From assembly GCF_030269645.1 (NCBI RefSeq), contig NZ_BSTR01000007.1, forward strand, positions 85,061 through 149,060: 64,000 bases of DNA. The letters run 5' to 3'. The translations under genes were made by a program, and so were the position numbers. Below the pieces are notes generated by a model that saw nothing but the letters and a program-made list of their open reading frames with translations, was not told the DNA's origin and made no database searches. Below are positions 35,506-54,778 of this stretch, piece after piece. Position 1 is the first letter of the stretch. Each line of letters begins with the position of its first letter. This stretch comes from Actinokineospora sp. NBRC 105648. GTDB lineage: Bacteria > Actinomycetota > Actinomycetes > Mycobacteriales > Pseudonocardiaceae.

Positions 35506-35650
35506 TGCTCGATGGGGTGGAGTGGCTTTGTTTGGGGAGAAAAGAGGCGCTAGCCTGACCCAGGCGGTGGGTATCCCTTTCCCGCCCGCTCTACCCACTG
35601 CGCCTCTTTTCTTAGGGGCCCCAAACAAAGCCACTCCACCCCATCGAGCA
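35506..35650 (+). repeat. Long-hairpin element, copy 1
   Basis: Outer arms of 32 nt (35506-35537 and 35619-35650) are perfectly complementary. The inner arms of 13 nt (AGAAAAGAGGCGC at 35538-35550 with 35600-35612) are also perfect. TAGGGG (35613-35618) is left unpaired on the 3' side, and the loop is 49 nt. A diverged 5' flank (AAGCCCCAC at about 35474, then ACGCA) matches those of other copies. It lies between convergent PP2C and ugd genes and is oriented like the PP2C transcript. Strand given is the canonical one with TAGGGGCCCC on the 3' arm. Confidence 0.9.
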
Positions 35651-35700
35651 CGCCAGAAGAACTCAAGTCCCACCAAAACCCGGGCACACCAGAACCCGGG

Positions 35701-35737
35701 CAACAAAAAGGGGCCGCACGCCGAAGCGTGCGGCCCC
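35701..35737 (-). terminator. Canonical Rho-independent terminator of ugd
   Basis: A perfect 12-bp stem (GGGGCCGCACGC at 35710-35721 with 35726-35737) closed by a TTCG tetraloop on the minus strand and followed by CTTTTTGTTG. It lies 14 bp past the ugd stop. This is the only terminator in the window with a clear U-tract right after the stem. Confidence 0.93.
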
Positions 35738-35750
35738 CAAAGAAAGAAAC

Positions 35751-37067
35751 CTACGGCATACCGACACCGATCCACTCGAACCCAGCCCGTCGAGCCACCG
35801 CCGGGTCCAGCAGGTTCCGCGTGTCCACCACGATCGGCTTGCGCACCGCCTCCGCCAGCCGTGCCCAGTCCAGTGCCCGGAACTCCGGCCACTCGGTCAG
35901 CACGACCACGGCCTCGGCGTCCTTCACCGCGTGGTACGGGTCGTCGGTCACCGTGATCGACGAGAGCGCCGGGTGGCCGCTGTCCGGCCGCAGTGCCGGG
36001 TCGTACCCGACCAGGTCGGCGCCCGCCTGCCGCAGCAGCGCGGCCACCGCGAGCGCGGGCGAGTCGCGCAGGTCGTCGGTGCCCGCCTTGAAGGTCAGCC
36101 CGAACAGAGCCAGCCGCCGGTGCGAGAGCGAGCCGTTGCGCTTGCCGGTGACCGCGAGGCGGACCTTCTCCACCATCCGCTGCCGCTGCCGGGTGTTGGT
36201 GTCGATCGTCGCCCGGATCAGCCGGAACTCGAAGTCGGCGGCGTCGGCGAGCTGCAGCATCGCCGAGGTGTCCTTGGGCAGGCAGGAGCCGCCCCAGCCC
36301 GGGCCGGGCTGCAGGAACGCCTGGCCGATGCGCTTGTCGTAGCCCATGCCCTCGGTGACGTCGCTGATGTTCGCGCCGAGCCGGTCGCACAGCTCGGCGA
36401 CGGCGTTGACGTAGGACAGCTTCATCGCCAGGAAGCAGTTGGCCGCGTACTTGACGAGCTCGGCGCTCGGCGCGTCGGTCAGCACGGTCGGCGCGCCCAG
36501 CTTCGCGTACAGCGCGGCGACCCGCTCGGCCGCGTCCTGCTGGCTCGCGCCGACGACGATGCGGTCGGGGTTGAGGAAGTCGTAGACCGCGCTGCCCTCG
36601 CGCAGGAACTCCGGGTTGGAGACCACCGCGACGTCGGAGCGGACCAGCAGCTCCTGGGTGCGCTCGGCGGTGCCCACCGGCACCGTCGACTTGTTGACCA
36701 CCACGCAGTCGGCGGGCAGCAGGTCGCGGACCTCCTCGATCACCGACTCCACGATGCTCAGGTCGGCCACGCCGCCCACGCCCATCGGGGTCGGCACGCA
36801 CAGGAACATGACCTCGGGGCCCTCGGCCAGCGCGCGGATGGCCGCCGAGGCGCCCAGCACGAAGCTCAGCCGCCCGGCCGCGATGCCCTCGGCCACCAGG
36901 TCGGCCAGACCCGGCTCGAGGATGTCGACCTCACCGCGCCTGAGCCGCTCCAGCTTGTCGGCGTCCACGTCGGCGCACACCACGTCGTGGCCCAGCGAGG
37001 CCAGGCAGGCCCCCGTGGTCAACCCGACGTACCCGGTGCCGATCACGGCGATCCGTCGTACGAACAT
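35751..37067 (-). CDS. ugd: UDP-glucose 6-dehydrogenase
   Basis: A 438-residue NAD-dependent sugar-nucleotide dehydrogenase of normal family length. The N-terminal Rossmann motif is VIGTGYVGLTTG, with VPTP and NKSTVPVGT following. The catalytic Cys262 is in GWGGSCLPKD, and GLTFKAGTDDLRDSPA marks the C-terminal domain. It makes UDP-glucuronate from UDP-glucose in two oxidation steps; GDP-mannose dehydrogenase is less likely. ATG 37067 begins the conserved motif. It lies 25 bp after a GT4 gene, so the two form the first polysaccharide operon here. Confidence 0.9.
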   Translation of the reverse strand: MFVRRIAVIGTGYVGLTTGACLASLGHDVVCADVDADKLERLRRGEVDILEPGLADLVAEGIAAGRLSFVLGASAAIRALAEGPEVMFLCVPTPMGVGGVADLSIVESVIEEVRDLLPADCVVVNKSTVPVGTAERTQELLVRSDVAVVSNPEFLREGSAVYDFLNPDRIVVGASQQDAAERVAALYAKLGAPTVLTDAPSAELVKYAANCFLAMKLSYVNAVAELCDRLGANISDVTEGMGYDKRIGQAFLQPGPGWGGSCLPKDTSAMLQLADAADFEFRLIRATIDTNTRQRQRMVEKVRLAVTGKRNGSLSHRRLALFGLTFKAGTDDLRDSPALAVAALLRQAGADLVGYDPALRPDSGHPALSSITVTDDPYHAVKDAEAVVVLTEWPEFRALDWARLAEAVRKPIVVDTRNLLDPAVARRAGFEWIGVGMP

Positions 37068-37092
37068 CGGTACCTCTCCCCTGCGTACTGAC

Positions 37093-38496
37093 TCAGCTCG
37101 CCTGTGGGCCGCTGATCTGCTCGGACTCGCCCTCGGGCGCCATGATGCGAGTCGCGGCGAACTCGCGCAACGCCCGGTCGTCGCGGAGGTCGACGAGCTG
37201 GTTGCCCCACTGGTCGACCAGCTTCTCCTCGCGCTCGCCCGAGCGGCGCTCCGCGGCGGGCCAGCCGTCCGGGAACGGGCCCGCCGAGGGGAAGCCGAGG
37301 AGTTCGTCGTAGACGCTGATGTAGGCCTGGGCCTGCGGGCGCCAGTCGAGCACCTGCTCGGCGCGGCGCCTGCCCGCGGCACCGAGCTCGGCGCGCTTGT
37401 CCTGGTCGTCGGCCAGCGCGATGACCGCGTCGGCCAGGCCGTCGCTGTCGCCGGGCTCGACGTAGACCGCGCAGTCGCCGCCGGAGACCACGGTCTCGGT
37501 GAGCCGGTAGGCCACGACGGGCAGCGCGTAGGCCATGTACTCCATGGTCTTGTTCATGGTGGACACGTCGTTGAGCGGGCTGCGCGGGTCCGGCGAGAGG
37601 CCGATGGTGGCCGCGGACAGGTAGCGCGCGATCTGCTCGGGGCCGACCCGGCCGGTGAACTCGACGTAGTCGTCCAGGCCCAGGTCGGTGGCCTGGCGCT
37701 TGAGGTCGTCGAGGCAGTCGCCGAAGCCGAGCAGGACGAACCGGAAGTCGGTCCGGCCGTGCAGGTGGACGATCCGGTCGGCGGCGTGCAGGACCCCGTC
37801 GACGCCGTCCTGCGGGCCCATGATGCCCAGGTAGGCCACCAGGTGCTTGCCGCCGCGGCGGATCGACTCGTCGGCGTAGATGGGGCGCATGACGGAGGTG
37901 TCCGGACCCGAGCGCACCACGGTGGTGTGCTCGCGCTCGACGCCACCGCGGCGGATCGCGATGTCCTGGTAGGACGTGTTGGTGGAGATCACCCGGTCCG
38001 CGGTGCGGAAGGTGCGGCGCTCGAGCCACTTGAGGATGGCGAGCTGGACCTTGCCCGCGAGCTTCTTCGGCTCACCGAAGCGGGAGCGGAAGACCTCCGG
38101 GTTGAGGTCGTGGTGGTCGAAGACGAACTTGACCGCGTCGAGCTTCCACGGCAGCGCCAGCGCCCAGTAGGTGTCCGGCGGGTTGCACGCCTGCATGACG
38201 TGGAAGTGGGCGCGGCGGCGCACCTTGAGGCTCAGCGCGGCGGTGCGCAGCCAGCAGTAGACGAACTCCCACGCGTAGCCGAGCAGGCCGTCGGCCTGCT
38301 TGGGCGGGGCGTACTTGTACAGGTGGACACCGTCGAGAACGGCGTAGGCGGGGTCACCGGGGCCCTTCGGGCAGATGACCGACACCTCGTAGCCCGCGGC
38401 TCTGAGCGCCCTGCACTCCAACCACACCCGCCGGTCCAGCGGGACGGGGAGGTTCTGCACGATGATCAGGACATGCGGGGCCCTCTGACGGCTCAC
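37093..38496 (-). CDS. GT4 family glycosyltransferase
   Basis: A 467-residue retaining GT-B glycosyltransferase. The N-terminal domain begins HVLIIVQNLPVPLDRRVWLECRAL, with HHDLNPEVF in the middle. The C-terminal donor domain has YLGIMGPQDGVDGVLHAADRIV, LLGFGD and TMNKTMEYMAYALPVVAY, the E-x7-E-like donor site. It resembles WbuB-type enzymes, which use UDP-sugars. GTG 38496 has AGGAAGAGGT upstream. It is co-transcribed with ugd, so UDP-GlcA or a product of it may be its donor. Confidence 0.9.
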   Translation of the reverse strand: MSRQRAPHVLIIVQNLPVPLDRRVWLECRALRAAGYEVSVICPKGPGDPAYAVLDGVHLYKYAPPKQADGLLGYAWEFVYCWLRTAALSLKVRRRAHFHVMQACNPPDTYWALALPWKLDAVKFVFDHHDLNPEVFRSRFGEPKKLAGKVQLAILKWLERRTFRTADRVISTNTSYQDIAIRRGGVEREHTTVVRSGPDTSVMRPIYADESIRRGGKHLVAYLGIMGPQDGVDGVLHAADRIVHLHGRTDFRFVLLGFGDCLDDLKRQATDLGLDDYVEFTGRVGPEQIARYLSAATIGLSPDPRSPLNDVSTMNKTMEYMAYALPVVAYRLTETVVSGGDCAVYVEPGDSDGLADAVIALADDQDKRAELGAAGRRRAEQVLDWRPQAQAYISVYDELLGFPSAGPFPDGWPAAERRSGEREEKLVDQWGNQLVDLRDDRALREFAATRIMAPEGESEQISGPQAS

Positions 38497-38711
38497 GGGG
38501 ACCTCTTCCTGGCTAAGACTTGACGTCGGCCGACGCTGTGTATTCGCTCGATCGGGCAGTTCGGTTACCGGCCGTATGACCAAGCCGACATGGCTGCGCA
38601 ACTACCCACCAAAGATTCGGTCAAGTTCGGCATCTTGTTACACACCGTGGTCGTTATCCGATACGTCAGACGAGGCGCCGCAGCATGCGGGCTAGCTGCG
38701 GAGGTGTTCGG

Positions 38712-39950
38712 GTGTACGTCGCATCGACCAGGCGAACCAAGACCGCGCCGCCGGTCGACGGCCCCCGCGCGGGCCGCGTTTCGACCACCGTGGTGCTCTT
38801 GGGCACGGTGAGCCTGCTCACAGACATCTCCTCGGAGATGGTGACCGCGTTCCTGCCGGTCTACGTGATCTTCAACCTGCAGATGAGCTACCTGCAGCTG
38901 GGCGTGCTCGACGGGATCTACACCGGCGCCACCGCGGTGTTGCGGCTGGTCGGGGGGCACATCTCCGACAAGGTGTCGCGGCACAAGGCGGTCGCGGTCG
39001 CCGGGTACGGGCTCTCCGCGGTCACCAAGCTGGTCTTCCCGTCGGTCGGCGCGTCCTCGGCGGGCCTCGGCGGGGTGCTGGCGGTCGACCGCGCGGGCAA
39101 GGGCCTGCGCACGGCCCCGCGGGACGCGCTGATCTCGCTGGTCACCCCCGTCGACCAGCTGGGCAAGGCGTTCGGCGTGCACCGGACGATGGACACCATC
39201 GGCGCGCTGATCGGTCCGCTGGCCACCTACGCGGTGCTGAACTGGCTGAGCACCCGGCCCGGCCCGATCTTCATGATCAGCTTCTGCTTCGCCGCGCTCG
39301 GCGTCATCGTGCTGGTGTTCTTCGTCCGCCAGCCCCGGCTCGAACGCGTCCCGGGCAAGGTGGTGACGCTGCGTGCCACCCTGGACCTGCTGCGCAACCG
39401 CGGCATGCGCCGCACCACCATCGCCGCGGGCCTGCTCGGCCTGGCCACGATCTCCGACGTCTTCGTCTTCGTCGTCCTGCAGCGGGTGTCGGGGGTGTCG
39501 CCGACCCTGCTGGCGCTGATGCCGGTCGGCACCGCGCTGACGTTCCTGCTGGCGGCCACCCCGCTGGGCAGGCTCGCCGACCGCGTCGGCCGCTGGCCGA
39601 TGTTCTTCGCCGGGCACGTCGTGCTGTTCGTGGTGTACCTGCTGCTGCTCGGCCCGTTCAGCGGCCTCGCGCTGGTGATCGTCACGGTCACCCTGCACGG
39701 CCTGTTCTACGCGGCCACCGACGGTGTCCTGATGGCACACGGCGCCACCCTGGTCCCCGAGCACCTGCGCGCGGGCGGTCTGTCGATCGTGCAAACTGGA
39801 CAGGCGCTCGCCCGGTTCGCCTCGTCCATCGGCTTCGGGCTGCTGCTGCAGAGCTTCGCCTTCAGCACCGCCGTGCTGGTGGCCATCGCCACGATGGCCA
39901 CCGCCCTGGTCGGTGTGTTCCTGCTCATCCGCCCGGAGGTCTCGCGGTGA
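38712..39950 (+). CDS. MFS transporter in polysaccharide region
   Basis: A 412-residue 12-helix major-facilitator protein. LLTDISSEMVTAFLPVYV in helix 1, GGHISDKVSRHKAVAV (loop 2-3 motif) and RAGKGLRTAPRDALI are clear. GTG 38712 is chosen because GGAGGT sits 7 nt upstream; an ATG at 38685 is the alternative. It is divergent from the GT4 gene and overlaps the next gene by GTGA. The substrate is unknown. Confidence 0.87.
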   Translation: MYVASTRRTKTAPPVDGPRAGRVSTTVVLLGTVSLLTDISSEMVTAFLPVYVIFNLQMSYLQLGVLDGIYTGATAVLRLVGGHISDKVSRHKAVAVAGYGLSAVTKLVFPSVGASSAGLGGVLAVDRAGKGLRTAPRDALISLVTPVDQLGKAFGVHRTMDTIGALIGPLATYAVLNWLSTRPGPIFMISFCFAALGVIVLVFFVRQPRLERVPGKVVTLRATLDLLRNRGMRRTTIAAGLLGLATISDVFVFVVLQRVSGVSPTLLALMPVGTALTFLLAATPLGRLADRVGRWPMFFAGHVVLFVVYLLLLGPFSGLALVIVTVTLHGLFYAATDGVLMAHGATLVPEHLRAGGLSIVQTGQALARFASSIGFGLLLQSFAFSTAVLVAIATMATALVGVFLLIRPEVSR

Positions 39951-40915
39951 ACACCTGGCTCGTGCGCAACAGGGTCGTCATCGGCGTGGTCGCCATGGTG
40001 CTCGTGATCGCGGCGGGCGTGGTCTACGTGGTGGCCACCGTCCGCGACCAGAACGCCGACGCCACCAAGCCGGGCGCGCCGGTGCAGAGCGGACTGACCT
40101 TCGTGGACAACGGCAGCGGCCAGAACCTGGTGTCCAAACTAGACGCTACCGGCGCCCGCACGGCAGGCTCGATGAAGTGCCTGCGGGTGTACACGGCAGG
40201 CGGGACCACGGTCTGCCTGCGAATGGGCGTGCCCGGGGCGTACGAGGCAGCGGTGTCCGATTCCACGGGCAAGGAACTGCGCACGGTCCCCCTGCCGGGA
40301 ACGCCTTCGCGGGCCAGGGTCTCGGCCTCCGGGAAAATCGTGTCCTGGACGGTGTTCGTGACCGGCGATTCATACCTTTCGCCGGGCGGATTTTCCACCC
40401 GCACTGGGGTATTGGACCTGCGAACGGGCGCTCTGACGGAGTCGCTGGAGACCTTCGCGACTTCCATCGAGGGCGTGCCGGACAAGCGGCCAAACGAGAA
40501 CTACTGGGGCGTGACCGTGGCCGCCGACGACAACACCTTCTACGCGACGCTCGGGTCTGGGAACACGACCTGGTTGGTCAAGGGAGACCTGACCGCGAAG
40601 ACGATGGCGACGGTCCGCCAGTCGGCCGAATGCCCATCCCTTTCACCGGACCAGACACGGGTCGCCTACAAGAAGCGCGGGGGACGGCTGGGGACTTGGC
40701 AGCTGTACGTGCTGGACCTGGCATCCGGTAAGGAGACCGAACTGCCGGGGTCGGACGGGGTGGACGACCAGGCAGCCTGGCTGGACGCGAAGAACCTGGC
40801 GTACGCGAAGGTGCAGACGGGCGGAGCACCGACGATCTTCGAATCAGCGGCGGACGGAACCGGACAGCCTAGGCAGTTGGTTGCAGGGGCATCGTCACCT
40901 TCCCCTGTGACCTAG
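39947..40915 (+). CDS. Membrane-anchored TolB-like beta-propeller protein
   Basis: A 322-residue protein with one N-terminal membrane anchor (about 9-31, VVIGVVAMVLVIAAGVVYVV) and an extracytoplasmic part made of WD40/TolB-like blades, for example CPSLSPDQTRVAYKKRGG and WQLYVLDLASGKETELPG. It overlaps the MFS gene by GTGA, so it is translationally coupled to the transporter. It may bind or present the exported product. No enzyme motif is seen. Confidence 0.78.
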   Translation: MNTWLVRNRVVIGVVAMVLVIAAGVVYVVATVRDQNADATKPGAPVQSGLTFVDNGSGQNLVSKLDATGARTAGSMKCLRVYTAGGTTVCLRMGVPGAYEAAVSDSTGKELRTVPLPGTPSRARVSASGKIVSWTVFVTGDSYLSPGGFSTRTGVLDLRTGALTESLETFATSIEGVPDKRPNENYWGVTVAADDNTFYATLGSGNTTWLVKGDLTAKTMATVRQSAECPSLSPDQTRVAYKKRGGRLGTWQLYVLDLASGKETELPGSDGVDDQAAWLDAKNLAYAKVQTGGAPTIFESAADGTGQPRQLVAGASSPSPVT

Positions 40916-40936
40916 GCACAGCATTCTGCTTTTTTC

Positions 40937-40978
40937 TTTCCTCTCTAAATGCCCTTCATCTTTTCCTCTCTAAATGCC
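40937..40978. repeat. Direct 17-bp repeat in left flank of hairpin copy 2
   Basis: TTTCCTCTCTAAATGCC occurs twice (40937-40953 and 40962-40978), 25 bp apart. A related CTCTCTAAAGGCC lies at the same distance before hairpin copy 4, so the motif is part of the wider element. Confidence 0.85.
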
Positions 40979-41012
40979 GAGCCCGCTGGTACGCAAGACC
41001 CGTTACGTTTGT

Positions 41013-41151
41013 GCTCGATTGGGTGGACTGCCTTCGTGTGGGGGAAGGCGACCGCTAAACTTGACCTGTGGTGGGGATGCCCTTCTCCCCACGCTTTTTC
41101 CCCACGCGGTCGCCTAGGGGCCCCGCGCGAAGGCAGTCCAGCCAATCGAGC
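41013..41151 (+). repeat. Long-hairpin element, copy 2
   Basis: Outer arms GCTCGATTGGG... and ...CCAATCGAGC pair over 31 positions with one G.G mismatch and two U.G wobbles. The inner GGCGACCGC pairs with GCGGTCGCC, and TAGGGG is unpaired before the 3' outer arm. The loop holds a GTGGGG/CCCCAC hairpin followed by GCTTTTT. The 5' flank includes ACGCAAGACCCGTTACG. It lies downstream of the TolB-like gene, on the same strand. Confidence 0.9.
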
Positions 41152-41245
41152 CTCCGCTTTACTTGGGCAGGTCATAAGGTGTGCCGCCCGGGGGTCGACC
41201 TCACGGGTGGCTCGTAGACATGGGCTGCCCGAGGAAAAGATGGGG

Positions 41246-41383
41246 GCTCGATCTAGTGAACTCGCTTCGTGTGGGGCCCCTAGAGCACCGCGGTGGAGAG
41301 AAAAGGGCAGGTAAGGGCATCCCCACCCACGGCAAGTTTAGCGGTGCTCTCCCCCCACACGAAGCGAGTCCACTAGATCGAGC
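41246..41383 (-). repeat. Long-hairpin element, copy 3
   Basis: Reverse orientation to copy 2 and tail-to-tail with it, 94 bp apart. The arms are perfect except one G.U wobble on the minus strand; the inner stem GAGCACCGC is perfect. In the loop the core TAAACTTG is shared with copies 2 and 4. It is oriented with the beta-helix lipoprotein gene at 41717, whose transcript would run into it. Confidence 0.9.
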
Positions 41384-41404
41384 ATCCGTAGCGGGCATTG
41401 CTTT

Positions 41405-41552
41405 CCAGCGGGGTCGGCCTCACCGCTGCGGTCTGCTGGGGGACGGGACTCGCTTGGGTGCCAGCGGGGTCGGGATCTTTGTTGCGGTACCAGCGGGGGC
41501 GGGATCCTGTCGCATACCAGCGGGGCTGGGTTCTCTTGCTTGCCAGCGGCGG
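41405..41552. repeat. Degenerate tandem repeat, CCAGCGGGG units
   Basis: CCAGCGGGG or close variants followed by a G/T-rich tail start at 41405, 41461, 41490, 41517 and 41543. The last three steps are 26-29 bp. No open frame is convincing here. The stretch lies between hairpin copy 3 and the terminator of the lipoprotein gene. Confidence 0.7.
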
Positions 41553-41644
41553 CGGTCGTTAGCTGCTGTTGGGCGGATTGGGCATGCTCGGCTTGGCCTT
41601 GCCTGGTCTGGTCCTGGCTTTTGACTGAGGTTGGTGGTGGTACG

Positions 41645-41684
41645 ACAAGGCCGCCGTCACCGGGGGAAGTGACGGCGGCCTTGT
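41645..41684 (-). terminator. Terminator of the beta-helix lipoprotein gene
   Basis: A perfect 16-bp stem, ACAAGGCCGCCGTCAC (41645-41660) with its complement at 41669-41684, and an 8-nt loop, 32 bp past the stop. A short direct repeat TTGTGCTGTTGCC follows on the plus side (41681-41706). Confidence 0.85.
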
Positions 41685-41716
41685 GCTGTTGCCTTGTGCT
41701 GTTGCCCTGGTTGTTG

Positions 41717-42904
41717 CTACCTGGGCTGGTTGATCATCTTGTTCGACGAGCTCAGGTTGTTCACCCACGAAGCGATCTGGGCGCCCGCGTCGACGAAGAC
41801 CTCGCCGAAGCCGCCTGCGGTGGTGCCGAAGCGGTTGTCGGTGACCACCGCTCCCTTGGCGGAGGCGCCGATGCGCAGGATGTAGCCGCCGCCCGCGAGG
41901 TAGTTGCCCACTACCTGGAGGCCGCTGGTGGGGCCGTCATCGCTCGACATGATGAAGACTGCGCCGTTCTGGTGGGTGCCGTCGTAGGCCTTGCCGTCGG
42001 CGCTGATGTCGATGCGGTTGTACTTGATGACGGTGTTCGGTCCGCCGTAGGACTGGATGCCGTCGTTGTGCGTGTTGTTCGGGTACGTCCCGGCGCGGAG
42101 CAGGTCGTGGATGTAGCTCTGCTCGATCTGGCTGTTGCCCGGACCGTTCTGGATGCCGTCCGGGGTGCCGGAGATGTCGCAGCGGATGACCGTCACCGTG
42201 GCGTCGCCGTGGATGGCGCCGTTGCCCCACTTGTCGCCGGGCCACTGGTCGTCCTTGTAGGTGATCGTCGAATCGCGGACGTCGACGTGGCCGCTGTTGC
42301 CCAGGATGGGGGACCAGCTGTTGTGGTTGCCCTCGATGACCGAGTTCCGGATGGTCAGCGTGCCCTTGCCGTTGTACTCGATGCCACCCTTGATGTAGTA
42401 GCCGTCGAGGGTCACGTTGCCGCTGAAGCGCAGCGCGCCGGAGTTCCAGGTGGTGCCGGGGGGCGCGGAGCCGGGGCCGTCGACGACCTTGAGCTTCGCC
42501 CGGTCGCCGCGGTAGCCGACCTGGCCGACGGCCGGAACGGTGTTCGCGGGCAGGGAGCCGCTCGGGGGCGGCACCGGGGCCGTTCCCGTGCTGGTCGGCC
42601 GGGGCTTGACCGTGGTCGAGACCGGTGGCGTGGCGCTCGACACCGTGGTGGTCGGTGGAGCGCTGGTCGTCGTGGTCGTCGGCTCGGTCGAGTCCGTCGG
42701 CGCCGAGGTGGGCGCCGGGACGATCGTGGTCGTGGTGGGCAGGTGCGGCGGGTGCGGCGCGGGCTTGCCTGCCACGGGCTTGCAACCCGCGGCGAGGACC
42801 AGGGCACCCAGTGCCACTCCGGCGGTCAGGGCGATCTTGCGGACCCGTCTGTGCCGGTCGTGGCTCTTGCCTAACTCCGCAGACGTTTGAGGTCGAGCGG
42901 ACAT
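41717..42904 (-). CDS. Right-handed beta-helix lipoprotein
   Basis: A 395-residue exported protein. A signal sequence ends in the lipobox LVLAAGC, so it is probably lipid-anchored on the outer face of the membrane. A Thr/Pro/Ser-rich linker of about 75 residues follows. The C-terminal part (about 125-395) has repeated short strands (TLTIRNSVIEG, HVDVRDSTITY, VTVIRCDISG, NTVIKYNRIDIS, GLQVVGNYLAGG), typical of parallel beta-helix carbohydrate-active proteins. ATG 42904 has GGAAGGA upstream. In a polysaccharide locus it may be a lyase or epimerase-like enzyme, or a binder; catalytic residues cannot be assigned. Confidence 0.85.
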   Translation of the reverse strand: MSARPQTSAELGKSHDRHRRVRKIALTAGVALGALVLAAGCKPVAGKPAPHPPHLPTTTTIVPAPTSAPTDSTEPTTTTTSAPPTTTVSSATPPVSTTVKPRPTSTGTAPVPPPSGSLPANTVPAVGQVGYRGDRAKLKVVDGPGSAPPGTTWNSGALRFSGNVTLDGYYIKGGIEYNGKGTLTIRNSVIEGNHNSWSPILGNSGHVDVRDSTITYKDDQWPGDKWGNGAIHGDATVTVIRCDISGTPDGIQNGPGNSQIEQSYIHDLLRAGTYPNNTHNDGIQSYGGPNTVIKYNRIDISADGKAYDGTHQNGAVFIMSSDDGPTSGLQVVGNYLAGGGYILRIGASAKGAVVTDNRFGTTAGGFGEVFVDAGAQIASWVNNLSSSNKMINQPR

Positions 42905-43171
42905 GAGATCCTTCCGGTTGGCATGTAAGTCGCCCCCGTTGCAGGACAAGGGATTCAACCTGCGAGCCGTACCGGGACACGACGTCCCGGGAGGCCGACG
43001 GCACTCTATGCAGATCCTTTGGCAGATCACAACGGGGTCACGATGCACCCGCCATTGCGGTTACGAAGAGTGTGATCCACGACTCGGTCGGGTGAAACGA
43101 CGCTGCGTAACAATTCCCGGGCGCTGACGATCCCTGTCGCGAGCACTTCTCTACGGCAACCGGGAGCTGGA

Positions 43172-44803: not shown

Positions 44804-44941
44804 GTGGCTCGTTAGACCATCTGGCCGAGCGAGGTCGCGCATGGGATCACATGGAGTAACGACTTTTCGTTCGATCGCGATGATTCAACAAGTAGGCAGC
44901 CGGACCTGTTGCTCGGTGTCACGTCGTGTGTTGGGGCGCAG

Positions 44942-46189: not shown

Positions 46190-46193
46190 ACCG

Positions 46194-47621: not shown

Positions 47622-49084
47622 CCGCAGACGCCCCCGAGGCGCCGCAGAGCACGAGCAGTCCCAGCACCGTCGGCGGGAAGGTCGGCCGCGGCGCGCTGTG
47701 GAGCCTGCTCAACACCGTCGTGCTGCGGTTGGGCACGCTGGTCTCGGGCATCGTCCTGGCCCGGCTGCTCAGCCCGTCCGACTACGGCGTGTTCGCCGTG
47801 GCCCTGGTCGCGGTGACGCTGCTGCAGGCGTTCAACGAGCTCGGCGTGAGCCTGGCGCTGGTGCGCTGGGAGCGCGACGTGCGCGAGTTCGCGCCGACGG
47901 CGATGACCATCGCGGTCGGCACGTCCACCGCCCTCTACGCGCTGGTGTTCCTCGGCGCGCCCGCGTTCTGCGACCTGATGGGCAGCCCGGACGCGGTGGC
48001 GGTGGTCCGGGTGCTCTGCCTGGCGGTGATCTTCGACGGGATCGCGGTGGTCCCGGCGGCGATCCTGAACCGGGAGTTCCTGCAGCGCACCAGGTTCCTC
48101 TGCGACGCGGCGGCGTTCGTGGTGGTCACCAGCGTGACCATCTCGCTGGCCTCCTCCGGCGCCGGGCCGATGAGCTTCGCGGCCGGGCAGATCGCGGGCA
48201 ACCTGGTCTCGGTGAGCTGCTACCTGTGGCTGTGCCCGGTGAAGGTGCGGCCCGGCTGGAACCCGGAGGTGGCCAGGGACCTGATCCGGTTCGGTCTGCC
48301 GCTGGCCGCGGCGAGCCTGCTGGTGCTGTCGGTGACCAACGTGGACAAGATCGTGATCGGCTCGCTGGCCGACGAGGCCGCGCTGGGCCTCTACGTGATG
48401 GCGTTCAACCAGTCCAGCCTGCCGCTGCAGGTGTTCTCCGAGGCCGCGCGGCGGGTGTCGCTGGCCGGGTTCTCCCGGCTGGTCAACGACAAGCGGGCGC
48501 TGGAGCAGGCGCTCGCGCGCGGGGTGGGGCTGCTGATGGCCGCCTCGATCCCGGTGTGCGCGCTGCTCGCCTGCTACGCCACCCCGATGCTGCACGTGGT
48601 CTACGGCGAGAAGTGGATCCCGGCCGCGGTGGCGCTGCAGTTCTTGGCGGGCCTGGGTTTGCTGCGCATCCTGCTGTTCATCGGCTACGACCTGCTGGTC
48701 GCCCTCGACGGCAACCGGGTGCTGATCGGCCTGCAGGCGCTCTGGTTGGGCACGATGCTGCCCGCGCTGATCCTGGGCACGCACCTCGACGGCATCCGCG
48801 GCGCGGCCATCGCGCAGGTGGCGGTGGCCGCGGTGGTCGTGGTGCCCGCGTTCCTGCTCGTGATCAAGCGCCGTGGGCTGCGGCTCAAGCCCGCGCTGCT
48901 GGCCTGCCGCCGACCGGTCGTCGGCGGGCTGCTCGTGGTGGCCTCGGCCCTCGTGGTGCACAACGTGTTCGACAACCCGTGGGCCAAACTCCTCATCGGC
49001 GGTCTCGCGGCCGTCGCCGTCTACCTCCCGGTGGTGTACCCGATGCGTGCGATGCTCCCCGGCCGTGCCGGAGCGACGGCATGA
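47618..49084 (+). CDS. Polysaccharide flippase (Wzx-type)
   Basis: A 488-residue polytopic protein of the MATE/Wzx lipid-linked oligosaccharide flippase group, with 12-14 helices. GRGALWSLLNTVVLRLGTLVSGIVLARLLSPSDYGVFAVA is a typical start, and IRFGLPLAAASLLVLSVTNVDKIVIGSLADEAALGLYVMAFN marks the second half. It moves undecaprenyl-linked units to the outer face. Coupled by 4-nt overlaps to the ligase before it and the GT2 after it. Confidence 0.9.
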   Translation: MTADAPEAPQSTSSPSTVGGKVGRGALWSLLNTVVLRLGTLVSGIVLARLLSPSDYGVFAVALVAVTLLQAFNELGVSLALVRWERDVREFAPTAMTIAVGTSTALYALVFLGAPAFCDLMGSPDAVAVVRVLCLAVIFDGIAVVPAAILNREFLQRTRFLCDAAAFVVVTSVTISLASSGAGPMSFAAGQIAGNLVSVSCYLWLCPVKVRPGWNPEVARDLIRFGLPLAAASLLVLSVTNVDKIVIGSLADEAALGLYVMAFNQSSLPLQVFSEAARRVSLAGFSRLVNDKRALEQALARGVGLLMAASIPVCALLACYATPMLHVVYGEKWIPAAVALQFLAGLGLLRILLFIGYDLLVALDGNRVLIGLQALWLGTMLPALILGTHLDGIRGAAIAQVAVAAVVVVPAFLLVIKRRGLRLKPALLACRRPVVGGLLVVASALVVHNVFDNPWAKLLIGGLAAVAVYLPVVYPMRAMLPGRAGATA

Positions 49085-49902
49085 CCGCCCCCCTCAAGGA
49101 CCGCGGCGGCGTCTCCGCGACCGTCCGCCGCGCGCTGCGCGACGCGTTCGGCCTGTGGCCGATGCACGAGGCCAAGAACCGGATCACCCTGGGCAAGCGG
49201 CTGCCCGAGCTGCGCGCGTTCGAGGACGCGCAGGTCGCCCGGTTGCGCACCGCGGTCGGCGACCGGCCGGAAACCCTTGTCACGACGGTGATGCCGACGT
49301 TCAAGCGGCCCAAGCTGCTGCCGGACGCGGTCGAGTCGGCGCTGGCGCAGACGGTCACCGACCAGCTGGTGATCGTCGTCGACGACGGCGGCGGCCTGCC
49401 CGCGCTGCCGGACGACCCGCGCCTGGTCGCGGTGAGCCTGGCGCGCAACTCCGCGGTGCTCGGCCTGGTGCGCAACGTCGGCATCCGGCTCACCCGGTCG
49501 CGCTACATCGCCTTCCTCGACGACGACAACACCTGGCGCGAGGACCACCTGGCGCACGCGCTGACCGCCCTGGGCCGCGGCGCCGACCTGGTCTACTCGG
49601 CCGTCGAACGCCGCCGCGCGGACGGGACGGTGCTCGACGTGCTGTCCGAACCCTTCGACCGCAAGACGATGGCCGACGACTCGCCCTACGTCGACTCGAA
49701 CTCCATCGTGCTGCGCCGGTCCGACGACGTGCTGTTCAGCAGGCTGCCGCGGGTGAAGGCGACGCTTCCCAAGGAGGACTGGGAGTTCGTCTACCGGATG
49801 GCCAAGACCCGGGTGGTCGCGCACGTGCCGGAGCCGACCGTGCGGTACCTGGTCAACGAGGCCAGCTACTACACGACGTGGCAGCCGGAGCAGCCCCAGT
49901 AG
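49081..49902 (+). CDS. GT2 family glycosyltransferase
   Basis: A 273-residue inverting GT-A enzyme. TVMPTFKRPKLLPDAVESALAQT is the donor-domain start, VVDDGGG the first acidic motif, and YIAFLDDDNTW holds the DxD metal site. KEDWEFVYRMA may supply the catalytic base (ED-like). ATG overlaps the flippase stop by ATGA, making it the last gene of the wzz-like/ligase/flippase/GT2 run. Sugar unknown. Confidence 0.88.
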   Translation: MTAPLKDRGGVSATVRRALRDAFGLWPMHEAKNRITLGKRLPELRAFEDAQVARLRTAVGDRPETLVTTVMPTFKRPKLLPDAVESALAQTVTDQLVIVVDDGGGLPALPDDPRLVAVSLARNSAVLGLVRNVGIRLTRSRYIAFLDDDNTWREDHLAHALTALGRGADLVYSAVERRRADGTVLDVLSEPFDRKTMADDSPYVDSNSIVLRRSDDVLFSRLPRVKATLPKEDWEFVYRMAKTRVVAHVPEPTVRYLVNEASYYTTWQPEQPQ

Positions 49903-49940
49903 CCGCCCGGGTCTCCGCAGCCCTCCGTTCTCCTGAGCCC

Positions 49941-51518
49941 TCAGATCACGGTGAGGGTCAGCCGCGCCGTGTAGGTGCCCGCCGGTGCGCTGGTGGGCAC
50001 CTTGAGCGCGATGTCCGCGGACAACCGCGCGGTTCCGTTGCCCGCCAGGGCGAGCGCGGTCGCCATGGTGCGGCTGTCGCGCAGTCCCCGTCCCGCGGGT
50101 GCGACGTCCGTCAGGCCGATAGCGTCGGCCGGGTCGACCCGTGGGCCCGCCGTGATCGCCTGGACCGGTGACTGCTCGACGATCCGCGGCGCCCAGCCCA
50201 GGTTGGCGCCGTTGATCAGGTCCGCGCCGCCGGCGAAGTCGGTCACCTGACCGGAGGCGTTCCAGCCGGGGTTGCCCGCCCGGGTGTCGGTGACCGTGAT
50301 CGGGTTCAGCGATCCGGCCGTGCTGCGCAGGGATCCGTCCGGGGCCAGGACGGGCGGTGGCAACACGACGTCCTGGTCGGCGACGCTGATGGTCAGCGCA
50401 CCCGGGACCACGGTGGTGGTGATGTCCACTGTGGCCGGACCGCTCGACGCGACGATGGTCATCGGGACCGGCGCGGACTCCGACACCGCCCAACGGTCCG
50501 TGGGCGGCACGAACTGCGCCACGACGCCGTAGGTGCCGAGGTCTGGTGGGACCTCGTCGCGCACGGTGGCGACACCGCCGACCACATCCGCCCGGTAGAC
50601 CGGGCCGAGGCCGCGGGTGTCCCGGAAGAAGAAGTACACCTTGCCGGTGGCCTCGCGAGGGCTCACCGTCGCGCGCAGCTCGAACGGGCTGCCCACGACG
50701 ACGATCTCAGCCGCGCGGCGCTCGAGGGTGACCGCGACGGGTTCGGGATCGGTGACCAGCAGGTCCAGCGGTGCCGAGGTGGAGTCCCCGACCTCCGGAA
50801 CGGTCCCGACGAACTCGGCGACGACGCTGCGCGTACCGAGCGGGTAGCTAACCCGGGTTGTCGCGACGCCGTCGACCACCGGTTTCCAGAGCTCACCCAA
50901 CGGCGTGCCGTCACGGAACCTGAGCCGCCCGGCAGCGGAGGGCGGGGAGACGGTCGCGGTCAGGGTTACCGGGTGGTAGGGCGCTAAGCGCGGGTTGTCC
51001 GGCGTGACGGACACCGTGACCGTCGTGGGGACCGGTGGCTGCGGCCAGATCGACCACCTCGTCGCACTGTTGAGGTAGATGTCGGTGCTGAAGCTGTTGA
51101 ACACCTCGGTCCCGAAGTTCGCCGTGCAGGTGAGCGTGACCGTGTAGGTACCGCGGGTCAGCAGGCGGCCGTAGGCGGCGAACGGCGCTGCCTGGTGTGC
51201 GGTGAACGGTTCCGTGATCGACACCGGGTCGGAGGACCAGAGGTTCAGGTCCTCGGCGTACCCGTTCGGGCCGCGGGCGGTGAGCTGGTAGGTCGTGGCA
51301 CCCACCGCGCACGGGCCGGAGGTGCGGTAGGTGATACCGGTGTCCTCTGTGGTGCCGCCCGACAGCGTCGGGGTGAGGGTGCCGTCCGCGGCGGCCGCGG
51401 CGGTGCCGGTCAGGCTGAGCACCGCGGTGCACGCCAACACAACCGCGCCGACGGCGATCCGCCGCAGGGTGTTCTTCGACGCTGCCAGCGCAATGTACCT
51501 AGCCACGTACCCAGCCAT
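49941..51518 (-). CDS. Secreted protein with Ig-like repeats
   Basis: A 525-residue exported protein. A signal sequence (KNTLRRIAVGAVVLACTAVLS, then TGTAAAAA) is followed by Ig-like beta-sandwich repeats of Big_3_5 type: SVTPDNPRLAPYHPVTLTATVSP and PLGTRSVVAEFVGT, then a second similar unit at about 280-360. The C-terminal part (DVVLPPPVLAPDGSL to the end) resembles another beta domain found in actinobacterial surface proteins. No cell-wall anchor is seen. The start codon has a distant GAGGGGG. It is convergent with the GT2 gene and divergent from a sigma factor gene. Confidence 0.82.
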   Translation of the reverse strand: MAGYVARYIALAASKNTLRRIAVGAVVLACTAVLSLTGTAAAAADGTLTPTLSGGTTEDTGITYRTSGPCAVGATTYQLTARGPNGYAEDLNLWSSDPVSITEPFTAHQAAPFAAYGRLLTRGTYTVTLTCTANFGTEVFNSFSTDIYLNSATRWSIWPQPPVPTTVTVSVTPDNPRLAPYHPVTLTATVSPPSAAGRLRFRDGTPLGELWKPVVDGVATTRVSYPLGTRSVVAEFVGTVPEVGDSTSAPLDLLVTDPEPVAVTLERRAAEIVVVGSPFELRATVSPREATGKVYFFFRDTRGLGPVYRADVVGGVATVRDEVPPDLGTYGVVAQFVPPTDRWAVSESAPVPMTIVASSGPATVDITTTVVPGALTISVADQDVVLPPPVLAPDGSLRSTAGSLNPITVTDTRAGNPGWNASGQVTDFAGGADLINGANLGWAPRIVEQSPVQAITAGPRVDPADAIGLTDVAPAGRGLRDSRTMATALALAGNGTARLSADIALKVPTSAPAGTYTARLTLTVI

Positions 51519-51677
51519 GTCTTACGTCGCTCCCCCTCGCGCACGCGCGCGTTGCCGCGATCCTGCGCGGACCGGGTGACCAGGTGAGGCGACGCAGGTG
51601 AGCAGCAGACGAACCCGTGCAACCCTGGTGGTCGGTGCGGGCGTGAGTAACCCGTAGCTACGCACCCAGGGGGTTCG

Positions 51678-52175
51678 ATGGACGATCGGGACAGGGGCTT
51701 CGCCGAGTACTTCGCGGCGCGGTCCGGGGCCATGCGCGGCACGGCGTTCCTGCTGTGTGGTGACTGGCACCGAGCCGAGGACCTCGTGCAGACGTCGTTC
51801 GTCAAGCTCTACCGCGTGTGGAACCGGATCTCCGAGCACGGCAAGCTCGACGCCTACACCCGGCAGATCCTCGTCCGCACCTTCCTCGACGAGACCCGCC
51901 GCGGGTTCTTCCGCCGCGAGCAGGTCACCGACGAGCCCGGCGACTGGGCCGCCCCCGCGCAGGGCAGCCCGGAAGACCGGATGGTGCTGCTGCGGGCACT
52001 GGCCAGAGTGCCCGCGCGGCAACGCGCCGCACTGGTCCTGCGGTACTGGGAAGACCTTTCCTTGGAGGAGACCGCCCGAGCGCTCAAGTGCTCCACCGGC
52101 ACGGTGAAGAGCCAGGCGTCGCGCGGCCTGGTCAACCTGCGCGCTCTCCTCCCCGCCACCACCGCAGCCCTCTGA
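51678..52175 (+). CDS. SigE-family ECF sigma factor
   Basis: A 165-residue sigma factor. Region 2 is FAEYFAARSGAMRGTAFLLCGDWHRAEDLVQTSFVKLYRVW (about 8-48) and region 4 is ERTARALKCSTGTVKSQASRGLVNLR-like (about 128-155). The CGDWHRAEDLVQT form is typical of the actinobacterial SigE-family (SigE-like 50) group. The next gene starts 9 bp later and encodes a membrane-anchored protein that may be its anti-sigma factor. Signal unknown. Confidence 0.9.
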   Translation: MDDRDRGFAEYFAARSGAMRGTAFLLCGDWHRAEDLVQTSFVKLYRVWNRISEHGKLDAYTRQILVRTFLDETRRGFFRREQVTDEPGDWAAPAQGSPEDRMVLLRALARVPARQRAALVLRYWEDLSLEETARALKCSTGTVKSQASRGLVNLRALLPATTAAL

Positions 52176-52184
52176 GAGGACCCC

Positions 52185-53054
52185 ATGGACGAGCACGAGG
52201 TGCGCCACGCCCTGCGCGGCGCGATGGACGGGATGGCAACGCCCCCGGCCATGAACAGCAGTGCGGTGCTGGACGCCGCGAAGCACGACCAACGGCGCAG
52301 GCGGGCCACCCTGGCCGGCCTGGGCAGTGCGGCCGCCGTGGCCGCGATCGCCGCAGGGGCGGTGCTCCTGCCCGGACTCGGCGGCACGGACAGCGGCCCG
52401 GCGGTCGCCGAGGGCGCCGTGGGGACGATCACCACGAGCCCGTCCGCGACCAGCCGGTCGACCAAGCCCACAAAGCCGACCAGGACCGGTACGACGTCGG
52501 GCACCATGAGCCCTGGTGGCCACACGCAGTCCAGCGGACCGCAGGAAGACCTGGCCGTGCGGCTGACCGACACCCTGCTGGGATCGGTGCCCGCGGGTCT
52601 GACCTCGCCGCCCGGGGTGATGGGCGAGTCCTTGCAGGGACCGTGGGCCCTCCGCCACCACCAGGCCACCACCGGTGAGGGCGGGGTCGGCTGGGAGTAC
52701 CAGGCACACATCCCGGTCGGCACCGGGGACGGCAAGTGGGGCAGGCTCAGCGCCGAGGTCCACCACGGCGAGAGCGCCCTGGACGGCTGCGCGCTGACCC
52801 AGAGCTACTGGGGCATGGGCGGGACCTGCTCGCTGGTCGACGTCGACGGCAAGAAGGTCGGCGTGGTCACCAAGCCGGGCGTGGACAAGCGACTGGACCA
52901 GTGGGCGGCCTACAAGCACCCGGACGGCACCGTCGTGTTCCTCGCGCAGGCCAAGGGGTACTTCGCCGCCCAACTGCCCGGCATCGCCAACGAGCCGTTC
53001 ACCGTCGAGCAGCTGGCCCGACTCACCACCGAACCGAAGTTCACCCTGCGCTAG
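52185..53054 (+). CDS. Membrane-anchored protein, probable anti-sigma partner
   Basis: A 289-residue protein. Residues 1-40 are cytoplasmic (EHEVRHALRGAMDGMATPPAM, then HDQRRRR), followed by one membrane helix (about 42-63) and a Ser/Thr/Pro-rich linker. An extracytoplasmic globular domain (about 120-289) has two Cys (GCALTQSYW, GTCSLVDVDG). Gene order and topology fit an anti-sigma factor for the sigma factor just upstream, but no zinc-binding anti-sigma motif is seen. The terminator at 53068 ends the pair. Confidence 0.72.
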   Translation: MDEHEVRHALRGAMDGMATPPAMNSSAVLDAAKHDQRRRRATLAGLGSAAAVAAIAAGAVLLPGLGGTDSGPAVAEGAVGTITTSPSATSRSTKPTKPTRTGTTSGTMSPGGHTQSSGPQEDLAVRLTDTLLGSVPAGLTSPPGVMGESLQGPWALRHHQATTGEGGVGWEYQAHIPVGTGDGKWGRLSAEVHHGESALDGCALTQSYWGMGGTCSLVDVDGKKVGVVTKPGVDKRLDQWAAYKHPDGTVVFLAQAKGYFAAQLPGIANEPFTVEQLARLTTEPKFTLR

Positions 53055-53067
53055 CCACCACCCAGAG

Positions 53068-53104
53068 GAGGCCGTCGGTCCACTGTGGACCGGCGGCCTC
53101 TTCG
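53068..53104 (+). terminator. Terminator of the sigma/anti-sigma-like operon
   Basis: GAGGCCGTCGGTCCA pairs with TGGACCGGCGGCCTC (53068-53100) as a 15-bp stem with one T.G wobble and a 3-nt loop, followed by TTCG. The centre is the TCCACTGTGGA sequence that recurs in the window. Confidence 0.85.
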
Positions 53105-53191
53105 CGTGTGCCGAAGTGGCCGTTTTGTCCGAAACTTCCGTAGAGTGGTGGCGTCGGGTACCCGATCACCTACTCAGGGAGAGAATGACCG

Positions 53192-54169
53192 GTGGTCTTC
53201 AAGAAGATGCTGCAGAAGTTCGGCGTTGGCGGCCCGACGGTGGACACCGTCCTGTCCGACCCACGCGGCGTACCGGGCGGACCGCTCAACGGCGAGGTCC
53301 GCCTGACCGGCGGCGAGGCCGACGCCGAGATCGAGCACATCGCACTGTCCCTGGTCACCCAGTCGACCGCCCGCCAGGTCGAATTCCACCGAGCAGTCGT
53401 CTCCGGCGCGACCCGACTGCGAGCGAAGGAACAGCGAACGGTCCAGTTCACCCTGCCACTCCCCTGGGAAACACCGGTGACCGAGGTGTCCGGCCAGCCA
53501 CTACCGGGCATCTCACTCGGACTGCGCACGGAACTGTCGATCGCGAAAGCGGTGGACAAGGGCGATCTGGACCCGGTCTACATCGCCCCACTGCCGTCGC
53601 AGGACGCTGTGCTCGACGCTTTCGGGGAACTCGGATTCCACTTCAAGTCGGTATCGCTTGAGGGCGGACAGGCTTATGGGGTTCGGCAGGAACTGCAGTT
53701 CTACCAGGAGATCGAGTTCTACCCGCCGCCGCAGTTCGCTGGTGGCGTGAGCGAGGTGGAACTGAGCATCATTGCCTCGGCGGCCGGCGTGACGGTTTTG
53801 CTGCAGGCGGACAAGCGATTCGGCGGGACTGGGGTTGGGCGGTTCCAGGCTTCGCACGAGGAGGCCCAGGCGCAGGATTGGGCTGCGGTTGTGGGGTCTT
53901 GGCTGGAGCAGACTCTGGCTGGGCGGCAGGCGCAGCAGGGATTTGGGCAGCAGGGGTATGGGCAGCAGGGGTATGGGCAGCAGGGTTACGGCCAGCCTGG
54001 CTATGGACAGCCGGGGTACGGGCATCCGGGGCAGCACCAGCGGCGTGGGCCTGGGATGGGCGGGATGGTTGCCGGGGTCGCGGGTGGCCTGGTCGGCGGC
54101 ATGATCATCGGCGACATGCTGGACGGCGGACTCATTGACGGGGACGACGGCGGCGGCGAAGAGTTCTGA
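53192..54169 (+). CDS. Spo0M family protein with Gln/Gly/Tyr-rich tail
   Basis: A 325-residue protein. The first 240 residues are a Spo0M (arrestin-like) domain: MVFKKMLQKFGVGGPTVDTVL, GEVRLTGGEADAEIEHI, LPWETPVTEVSG and FYPPPQFAG. Bacillus Spo0M acts at the cytoskeleton/sporulation-phosphorelay interface; the actinobacterial role is unknown. The tail has repeated GYGQQ/GYGQP units (about 250-275), then a Gly/Met-rich hydrophobic stretch (GGMVAGVAGGLVGGMIIGD) and an acidic end. That tail could associate with membranes or self-assemble. GTG start at 53192. The third-codon GC drops in the tail. Confidence 0.88.
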   Translation: MVFKKMLQKFGVGGPTVDTVLSDPRGVPGGPLNGEVRLTGGEADAEIEHIALSLVTQSTARQVEFHRAVVSGATRLRAKEQRTVQFTLPLPWETPVTEVSGQPLPGISLGLRTELSIAKAVDKGDLDPVYIAPLPSQDAVLDAFGELGFHFKSVSLEGGQAYGVRQELQFYQEIEFYPPPQFAGGVSEVELSIIASAAGVTVLLQADKRFGGTGVGRFQASHEEAQAQDWAAVVGSWLEQTLAGRQAQQGFGQQGYGQQGYGQQGYGQPGYGQPGYGHPGQHQRRGPGMGGMVAGVAGGLVGGMIIGDMLDGGLIDGDDGGGEEF

Positions 54170-54305
54170 GGCACCACCCTCGCCCTAGCACTTGCATTCC
54201 CTTGCCCTAGCACTCACTTGCACTGGCATTTGCACTCGCATTTGCCCTTGGCTTGTCGCTCTCTAAAGGCCAAGCCCCACGCTACGCAACACCCGCTACG
54301 CCAGT

Positions 54306-54446
54306 GCTCGATTCAGTGGACTCACTTCGTGCGGGGGGAGAGTACCGCTAAACTTGCCGTGTGGTGGGGAATGCCCTTCACCCGCCCTTTTTTCACCACC
54401 GCGGTGCTCTAGGGGCCCCGCACGAAGTGAGTTCACTGAATCGAGC
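54306..54446 (+). repeat. Long-hairpin element, copy 4
   Basis: Outer arms GCTCGATTCAG... and ...CTGAATCGAGC pair over 31 positions with one G.U wobble; the inner GAGTACCGC/GCGGTGCTC has one U.G. TAGGGGCCCC is on the 3' arm. The 5' flank AAGCCCCACGCTACGCAACACCCGCTACG-like (54272-54300) closely matches copy 5. It is downstream of, and oriented like, the Spo0M gene. Before it, 54184-54248 is a degenerate TTGCACT/TTGCATT run with no gene. Confidence 0.9.
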
Positions 54447-54455
54447 TCGCTCTTA

Positions 54456-54519
54456 AGTCGGGCAACCTGGATGAGCTACACCCAGTTTAGGACGCGTAGC
54501 TCATACAGGTTGCCCGACT
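54456..54519. repeat. 24-bp inverted repeat between hairpin copies 4 and 5
   Basis: The arm starting AGTCGGGCAACCTG (54456-54479) and its complement (54496-54519) match at 23 of 24 positions around a 16-nt spacer. They are the 3' tails of copies 4 and 5 facing each other; a weaker GGGCAG/CTGCCC version lies between copies 2 and 3. Confidence 0.85.
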
Positions 54520-54528
54520 AAGACGCAG

Positions 54529-54669
54529 GCTCGATCTGGCGAACTCCCTTTGCGCGGGGCCCCTAGAGCACCGCAGTGGGGAAAAAGCGTGGGGTGAAGG
54601 GCATCCCCACCACCAGGTCAAGGTTAGCGGCACTCCTCCCCCACACAAAGGGAGTCCGCCAGATCGAGC
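54529..54669 (-). repeat. Long-hairpin element, copy 5
   Basis: Reverse orientation, tail-to-tail with copy 4. On the minus strand the outer arms pair with three G.U wobbles and the inner GAGTGCCGC/GCGGTGCTC with two more; there is no A.C. The loop has GTGGGG/CCCCAC followed by GCTTTTT. Its canonical strand is that of the glycosyltransferase gene at 54973. Confidence 0.9.
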
Positions 54670-54778
54670 ACATCCGTAACGGGTGTTGCGTTCCGTAGGG
54701 CTTGAGAATTAGGGATGAAGAGAAGAAGAGATCGAATGGAAGGAGAAACGGAGGGGAACGGACGGAGGCTGAGGCCAA

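Follow-up and report, generated by a model that had tools for sequence, protein, structure and literature searches.

The window analysed here, a 64,000-nucleotide stretch of the genome of Actinokineospora sp. NBRC 105648 (contig NZ_BSTR01000007.1, positions 85,061 to 149,060 of the forward strand), contains five copies of a long hairpin at three loci, each between convergent genes. An original prediction, made from the letters of the DNA, had placed five palindromes here, and all of them were present at the claimed places, with outer arms 90-100% complementary and with the GCTCGAT/ATCGAGC ends, the unpaired TAGGGG and the loop core that had been described. The 5′ flank ACGCAANACCCGYTACG, attributed to all five, was clear in copies 2, 4 and 5, diverged in copy 3 and absent from copy 1. 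The five hairpins are real, far beyond chance: their canonical strands fold 8.8-12.2 standard deviations below dinucleotide shuffles, and for each copy 0 of 200 shuffles folded as well. Copies 2 and 3 and copies 4 and 5 form two composite inverted units, copy 1 is a subtype distinct from the other window copies, and no T-run follows the 3′ arm of any of the five. In window coordinates, the copies and their composite units are as follows.

35507..35649, plus strand: copy 1, type C, a bare 143-nt hairpin without conserved flanks, with a T before it
41013..41151, plus strand: copy 2, type B hairpin, left half of an inverted pair with copy 3
41246..41383, minus strand: copy 3, type A hairpin, right half of the inverted pair with copy 2
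54306..54446, plus strand: copy 4, type A hairpin, left half of an inverted pair with copy 5
54529..54669, minus strand: copy 5, type A hairpin, right half of the inverted pair with copy 4
40954..41400 (approximate limits), no strand: composite inverted unit around copies 2 and 3
54260..54715, no strand: composite inverted unit made of flank, copy 4, middle hairpin, copy 5 and flank, with 220-nt arms that are 77% complementary
54454..54522, no strand: middle palindrome separating copies 4 and 5, read from the sequence

These copies belong to an abundant family. A 37-nt pattern covering the AGGGG motif and the 3′ arm, allowed at most two mismatches, matched 344 times in the window's own genome, G000 (167 forward, 177 reverse; 0 for the reversed-pattern control), a count that stands for at least 344 copies. 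The same pattern matched 6 of 16 Actinokineospora genomes, and a pattern for the inner loop of the copy-1 subtype gave 70 matches, 35 per strand. Nearest relatives of a protein encoded in the window were found in A. enzanensis (93%) and in A. terrae, A. globicatena, A. diospyrosa and A. auranticolor (92%). The original prediction had called for a covariance-model scan of this genome and other Pseudonocardiaceae and for a comparison with Rfam. Covariance model R1 found the family in all 16 Actinokineospora genomes, with 2 to at least 150 matches each, and, with stricter filters, in 16 of 120 Pseudonocardiaceae genomes and 8 of 46 genera. A second model, R2, built from 40 copies, found it in at least 11 of 249 genomes of the order, which is a lower bound since 13 candidates were scored per genome. 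The family is therefore present in the genus and beyond, and its arms and subfamilies differ between the genomes examined. Rfam gave no match in the window at gathering thresholds and, at six relatives' loci, only two sub-threshold miRNA matches, both outside the hairpins. No such hairpins were described in the titles and abstract openings listed by our literature surveys, several of which gave only the top 10-20 of many and which exclude subscription papers, in agreement with the earlier statement that no family with this layout had been described. Plasmid and phage collections gave no match to the unit of copies 2 and 3.

The hairpin is built of an outer stem, a short side facing AGGGG, an inner stem, an internal loop and an apical stem, and this layout is kept across genera with changed arms. 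The asymmetric AGGGG-type loop is likewise retained across genera, and most of the rows compared have an internal loop resembling AAGCT or AAACT, with deviations in G003 and G007. In G106, a GGGG/CCCC pairing has become GGAG/CTCC and the bulge has changed from AGGGG to AGAGG. Across 40 copies, in an alignment that was fitted to the model and so flatters the pairing figures, 94.7% of cells pair compared with 62.6% in shuffles, and double-sided changes occur at 48 of 52 pairs compared with at most 32 in slid controls. In a set of other genera, a T.C mismatch occupies the ninth pair in 8 of 10 unique arm pairs.

The two strands of the hairpin are not equivalent. On the canonical strand, with a detection that treats all mismatches alike, G.T wobble pairs outnumber A.C mismatches 99 to 6 in G000 (77 unique arm pairs), 43 to 3 in G003 (23 unique arm pairs) and 36 to 2 in other Actinokineospora (17 unique arm pairs), which sums to 178 wobble pairs and 11 A.C mismatches on one strand. 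When each position and type was counted once per set, by hand and to reduce founder effects, 36 G.T and 10 A.C remained. Ratios from the gene-linked set of genera g8 and g35 (5:2, seven arm pairs) and from other genera (1:0, ten arm pairs) rest on numbers that are too small. Because G.T far exceeds A.C on one strand in Actinokineospora, a single-stranded DNA or RNA form is under selection there; the counts indicate that one single strand is folded and selected, and they fit RNA and single-stranded DNA alike.

The window is a biased sample of hairpin placement. Placement was examined in 848 kb of the same genome, of which a codon-based gene finder makes 85% genic, and was counted from the covariance model (64 copies at 47 loci), as a motif scan misses some (49 copies, 40 loci). 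None of the 64 copies lies within a gene, which extends what had been claimed for the five. By gap type, 19 loci are convergent, 18 tandem and 5 divergent, with 5 more at contig edges. Convergent gaps are over-used: they take 19 of the 42 classifiable loci but make up 25% of the intergenic bases (p=0.004) and 17.5% of all gaps (p=3e-5). Divergent gaps are not significantly thinned (p=0.10). The exclusively convergent setting is thus a property of the three window loci, and without them the share is 16 of 39. The agreement of the canonical strand with the adjacent transcript in five of five copies is near-automatic in a convergent gap, and tandem-gap copies run 12 sense to 9 antisense; random orientation, which the original prediction had named as evidence against itself, is what the wider genome presents. 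In 400 kb of G003, the placement is 14 convergent, 19 tandem (6 sense, 13 antisense), none divergent and 4 at edges, and an additional chance palindrome without the family motif lies inside a gene. Inverted pairs make up 17 of the 47 G000 loci, in the order plus-minus in 16 of 17, and all six mixed clusters of G003 run minus then plus. No clear replichore bias was apparent by eye, with no formal test, among the listed part of 164 G003 places, and the genes between neighbouring hairpins in G000 looked ordinary by eye.

For copy 1, the gap was compared between genomes. The copy lies 230 nt from a plus-strand gene and 100 nt from a minus-strand gene. The features that come after the copy, in window coordinates, are as follows.

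35703..35738, minus strand: a hairpin that resembles an intrinsic terminator, distinct from the element and at the 3′ end of the gene in the next entry
35751-37067, minus strand: UDP-glucose dehydrogenase-like gene (named by eye)

At this one gap, placement is mostly lineage-specific. By R2, 16 of 17 relatives' loci have no hairpin there, and the neighbouring gene is retained in 15 of 17 within the stretch examined. In A. auranticolor (L108:4557-4698), the gap holds a hairpin on the same side and in the same orientation, of another subtype, whose inner stem and much of the arms differ from copy 1. Junction repeats of 3 nt or more were absent in 43 of 50 unique type-C copies (41.4 expected from shuffled partners) and measured 3-5 nt in the remainder, so that no target-site duplication above chance was found at these 50, 44 of which have a T directly before them. 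No parent insertion sequence (IS) with the same terminal repeats was found in the part of the genome examined.

A possible partner gene emerged from two other genera. Single loci in g8 and g35 first pointed to genes of the DUF222-HNH type; DUF222, which Pfam lists as a domain "of unknown function", is encoded in 82 of 130 Pseudonocardiaceae genomes. A DUF222 match is found no more than 2 kb away from 42 of 49 hairpins in G049, a single contig of 8.57 Mb, and from 32 of 36 in G022. Orientation relative to the match is fixed: 5′-side hairpins are antiparallel in 60 of 60 cases, and 3′-side hairpins, which occur in G022 only, are parallel in 14 of 14. Counted from the gene side, with some DUF222 matches being pieces of one gene, 42 of the 50 matches in G049 have a 5′ hairpin, 8 have none and 0 are flanked on both sides; the 23 matches in G022 comprise 14 with an inverted hairpin on each side, 4 with a 5′ hairpin only and 5 with none. 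Of the seven leftover G049 hairpins, all but one stand 5′ of a DUF222-type gene that is truncated or decayed. In total, 48 of the 49 hairpins detected in G049 are placed 5′ of a DUF222-HNH-type gene, whether intact or decayed, and in every case run antiparallel to it. G022 adds a 40-bp inverted repeat outside both hairpins in five of five copies compared. G049 carries two DUF222 classes, 24% identical over 286 aligned columns, beside the same hairpin type, and at the class loci L272 and L273 the hairpin is 130-145 nt from the predicted start. A hairpin was also present at the DUF222 loci examined in G082 and G109, of the same genus as G049. A search of the PDB by sequence gave no match for the G022 protein. 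As a partner, the HNH protein is a strong candidate in two genera; its role outside them is unproven.

Taken as a whole, the hairpins resemble components of a mobile element of a kind not described before, and not RNA tails of genes. They probably constitute an abundant REP/MITE-like family (repetitive extragenic palindromes, miniature inverted-repeat transposable elements) in Pseudonocardiaceae, composed of mobile elements that are non-autonomous and for which DUF222-HNH is the candidate partner. Mobility is supported by the copy number, the genome-specific subfamilies, the copy-1 gap that has no hairpin in 16 of 17 relatives and the linkage to a nuclease-type gene in two other genera. To this extent the original suggestion of a MITE inserting at 3′ ends is supported, with the correction that convergent gaps are over-used and not exclusive. 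In this reading, the recognised form would be a single strand folded as the long hairpin, with outer stem, asymmetric AGGGG internal loop, inner stem, AAGCT-like loop and apical stem. In the gene-bearing form, hairpins would border the DUF222-HNH-type gene as REPs border RAYT genes, and the HNH protein, or a replacement enzyme, may nick or process the folded hairpin. The hairpin would then copy into intergenic DNA without target-site duplication, presumably through a single-stranded DNA or RNA intermediate, and the loss of copies landing in genes would account for the intergenic bias. In Actinokineospora, the hairpins have been kept with no gene linked to them and are joined as inverted units of BIME type. 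We further propose, tentatively and as something we hold to be rather less than probable, that the family represents a new class of mobile element, in which a DUF222-HNH nuclease, and not a RAYT or DDE enzyme, recognises a long strand-specific hairpin, with its two conserved internal loops, at the ends. Such an element would move without target duplication, and its gene-less hairpins could spread to hundreds of copies.

Several observations weigh against the reading of a REP/MITE-like family with DUF222-HNH as partner. Neither a donor element nor a transposition event nor a strain polymorphism was seen, and the A. auranticolor hairpin in the copy-1 gap is possibly an independent insertion or possibly an old shared site with turned-over sequence. 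No hairpin-linked DUF222 gene was found in Actinokineospora: DUF222 matches number 1 in G000, 0 in G003 and 2 in G012, and at E<=0.05 no hairpin accompanies any of them, although a 15.5-bit hairpin match at E=0.07 was recorded at one G012 locus. Apart from a single weak hit, a tblastn search over 133 Actinokineospora sources (1.45 Mb) yielded no DUF222 remnant. Hairpins are absent from all 11 HNH loci examined in G000 and G003, and the HNH genes of these two genomes were rejected as partners on that ground. A comparison of positions by eye in genera g17, g23 and g28 shows the listed hairpins lying apart from the DUF222 genes, and the hairpin-bearing G074 and G102 have no DUF222 match. Of 30 DUF222 loci examined, 27 lack a hairpin, and the three that have one all belong to genus g35. 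Finally, Pfam HNH (PF01844) was detected in four of six DUF222 proteins tested, the misses being G049 class II, which aligns with class I through the HNH region, and one G012 protein.

Given the PF01844 gaps, the unlinked genera and the hairpin-free DUF222 loci, the HNH protein could be a passenger. Another enzyme would then mobilise the hairpin, and the DUF222-HNH genes, in g8 and g35 only, would be homing parasites or captured passengers. We regard this as a possible though unlikely account, to which the many hairpins without a DUF222 match in G003, G074 and G102, the 27 of 30 hairpin-free DUF222 loci and the presence of two very different classes beside one hairpin type, as expected of repeated capture, all lend weight. 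IS elements are also reported to target REPs (PMC1525189), and an ISL3 element lies inside one hairpin here. A homing target should nevertheless leave many hairpins unoccupied, and only 1 of 49 in G049 is without an intact or decayed DUF222-type neighbour. A self-standing structured RNA, serving as guide or scaffold for the HNH protein in the manner of OMEGA systems and amplified as a selfish gene, would account for the strong covariation and the one-strand G.T excess, and in three of four proteins tested the HNH part is weakly similar to the NCBIfam model for IscB (21.1 bits at best, against a cut-off of 175). We consider it very unlikely, given that all 60 hairpins on the 5′ side are antisense to the gene, that Pfam gave DUF222 and HNH only, that type-C copies have no conserved flank that could be a promoter and that single-stranded DNA hairpins account for the same data.

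In the reading first put forward, selection at the ends of convergent genes would maintain a 3′-untranslated-region element or a module for mRNA processing or termination. This reading drew on the three convergent window loci, and the over-use of convergent gaps and the folding of one strand agree with it. It fails because placement is not tied to convergent gaps (among 42 loci there are 18 tandem and 5 divergent ones) and orientation is independent of transcription, without sense bias; moreover, the 3′ arms lack a T-run, the copy-1 gap has its own terminator-like hairpin, and 16 of 17 relatives have no hairpin in that gap. We now hold it to be highly improbable. Nearly perfect outer arms that co-vary between copies might also be palindromes maintained by template-switch (quasi-palindrome) correction without selection, an explanation to which we assign a negligible chance: under it, G.T and A.C should vanish alike, against the observed 178 and 11 on one strand, and the asymmetric AGGGG-type loop would not be expected to be kept across genera as it is.

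The family resembles the REP system in layout and lacks the RAYT gene and the GTAG foot that define membership in it. REP, BIME and REPIN sequences are described as high-copy intergenic palindromes with inverted dimers, with a bulged hairpin and with a gene between two inverted copies (PMC2817692, PMC8266576, PMC3733652), and the coli REP system is described as requiring a bulged, folded single strand (PMC8266576). The hairpins are likewise intergenic, high-copy and arranged in inverted dimers (344 copies, 0 of 64 genic, 17 pairs among 47 loci), and a gene stands between two inverted copies at 14 of 23 matches in G022, but not in G049 (0 of 50) or Actinokineospora. They differ from REPs in length (about 105-150 nt here, 20-40 for REPs), in having no GTAG/CGTC foot, with GCTCGAT/ATCGAGC-like feet in type C and an internal AGGGG as the conserved motif, and in the absence of a Y1 transposase from the window's genome, the linked gene being of DUF222-HNH type and in two genera only. 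CGTC-tagged REPs are similar in being palindromic repeats without a known dedicated transposase, and differ in their 8-9 bp stems and CGTC tag, according to the main text of PMC3733652, in which the word Actinobacteria does not occur. REP13E12/HNH endonuclease/DUF222 is named as a class of repetitive element in Mycobacteria in a passage of PMC10589994 that mentions no hairpin borders; the mycobacterial copies were compared by this description only. The hairpins differ from intrinsic terminators in their mixed orientation and in the absence of a T-run after the 3′ arm in the five copies. MITEs, ERIC and Correia-type elements are short non-coding intergenic palindromes with terminal inverted repeats, from which the hairpins differ in lacking a target-site duplication and in keeping their internal loops from genus to genus. 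In integron attC sites and IS608 ends, extrahelical bases on a folded single strand mark the active strand. The hairpins share the folded single strand with extrahelical bases, but no integrase, cassette or Y1 enzyme was seen with them.

With a structured partner whose spacing and orientation hardly vary, one function of DUF222 becomes directly testable, and the class of mobile element proposed above would, if true, give the large DUF222/13E12 family a role. It would also extend REP-like biology to an enzyme class without description in the titles and abstract openings surveyed. The hairpin is several times longer than a REP, and its covariation shows what a partner must see.

Other candidate mobilisers were rejected. 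Y1_Tnp (PF01797) gave 0 matches at E<=0.001 in G000, G002, G003, G005, G008 and G014, and RAYT/IS200-like Y1_Tnp genes occur in only 2 of 16 Actinokineospora genomes (L071 in G001, L072 in G012), with no hairpin at either locus (E<=1); a RAYT partner is thus absent from the window's genome. An ISL3-family IS at L235:1425-2990 (G000:C46) lies inside a type-C hairpin with an 8-bp target duplication, TAAGAAAA; having its own ends and this duplication, it is an intruder between two hairpin halves, and its transposase was rejected as mobiliser. In G003, the same transposase gene, recognised by eye as IS3-type, stands between hairpins at L059:18025-18564 and L070:1312-1851, and it was judged an intruder too.

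Some minor observations concern the reach of the family and its surroundings. In genus g17, the hairpins of L076 (G069) and L077 (G120) share one position, next to a gene that by eye was named yebC-like, so that part of the copies may be ancient and inherited. Other families of the order gave single hairpins of weak score and similar loops, at L259 (G232) and L261 (G280), the latter with an AAGCT loop and a GGGGTCCCC junction; no DUF222 gene was recognised by eye beside either. The word GGTTCCAGCG occurs outside the hairpins of G022 and G049. Repeats resembling CCGCAGCGGATAGGCCGACCCCGCTGG lie beside type-A copies, for example at 41384-41500 of the window (minus strand) and near 88850-88970 of C15 in G000, and in the 848 kb, 19 of them are near hairpins and 12 away.

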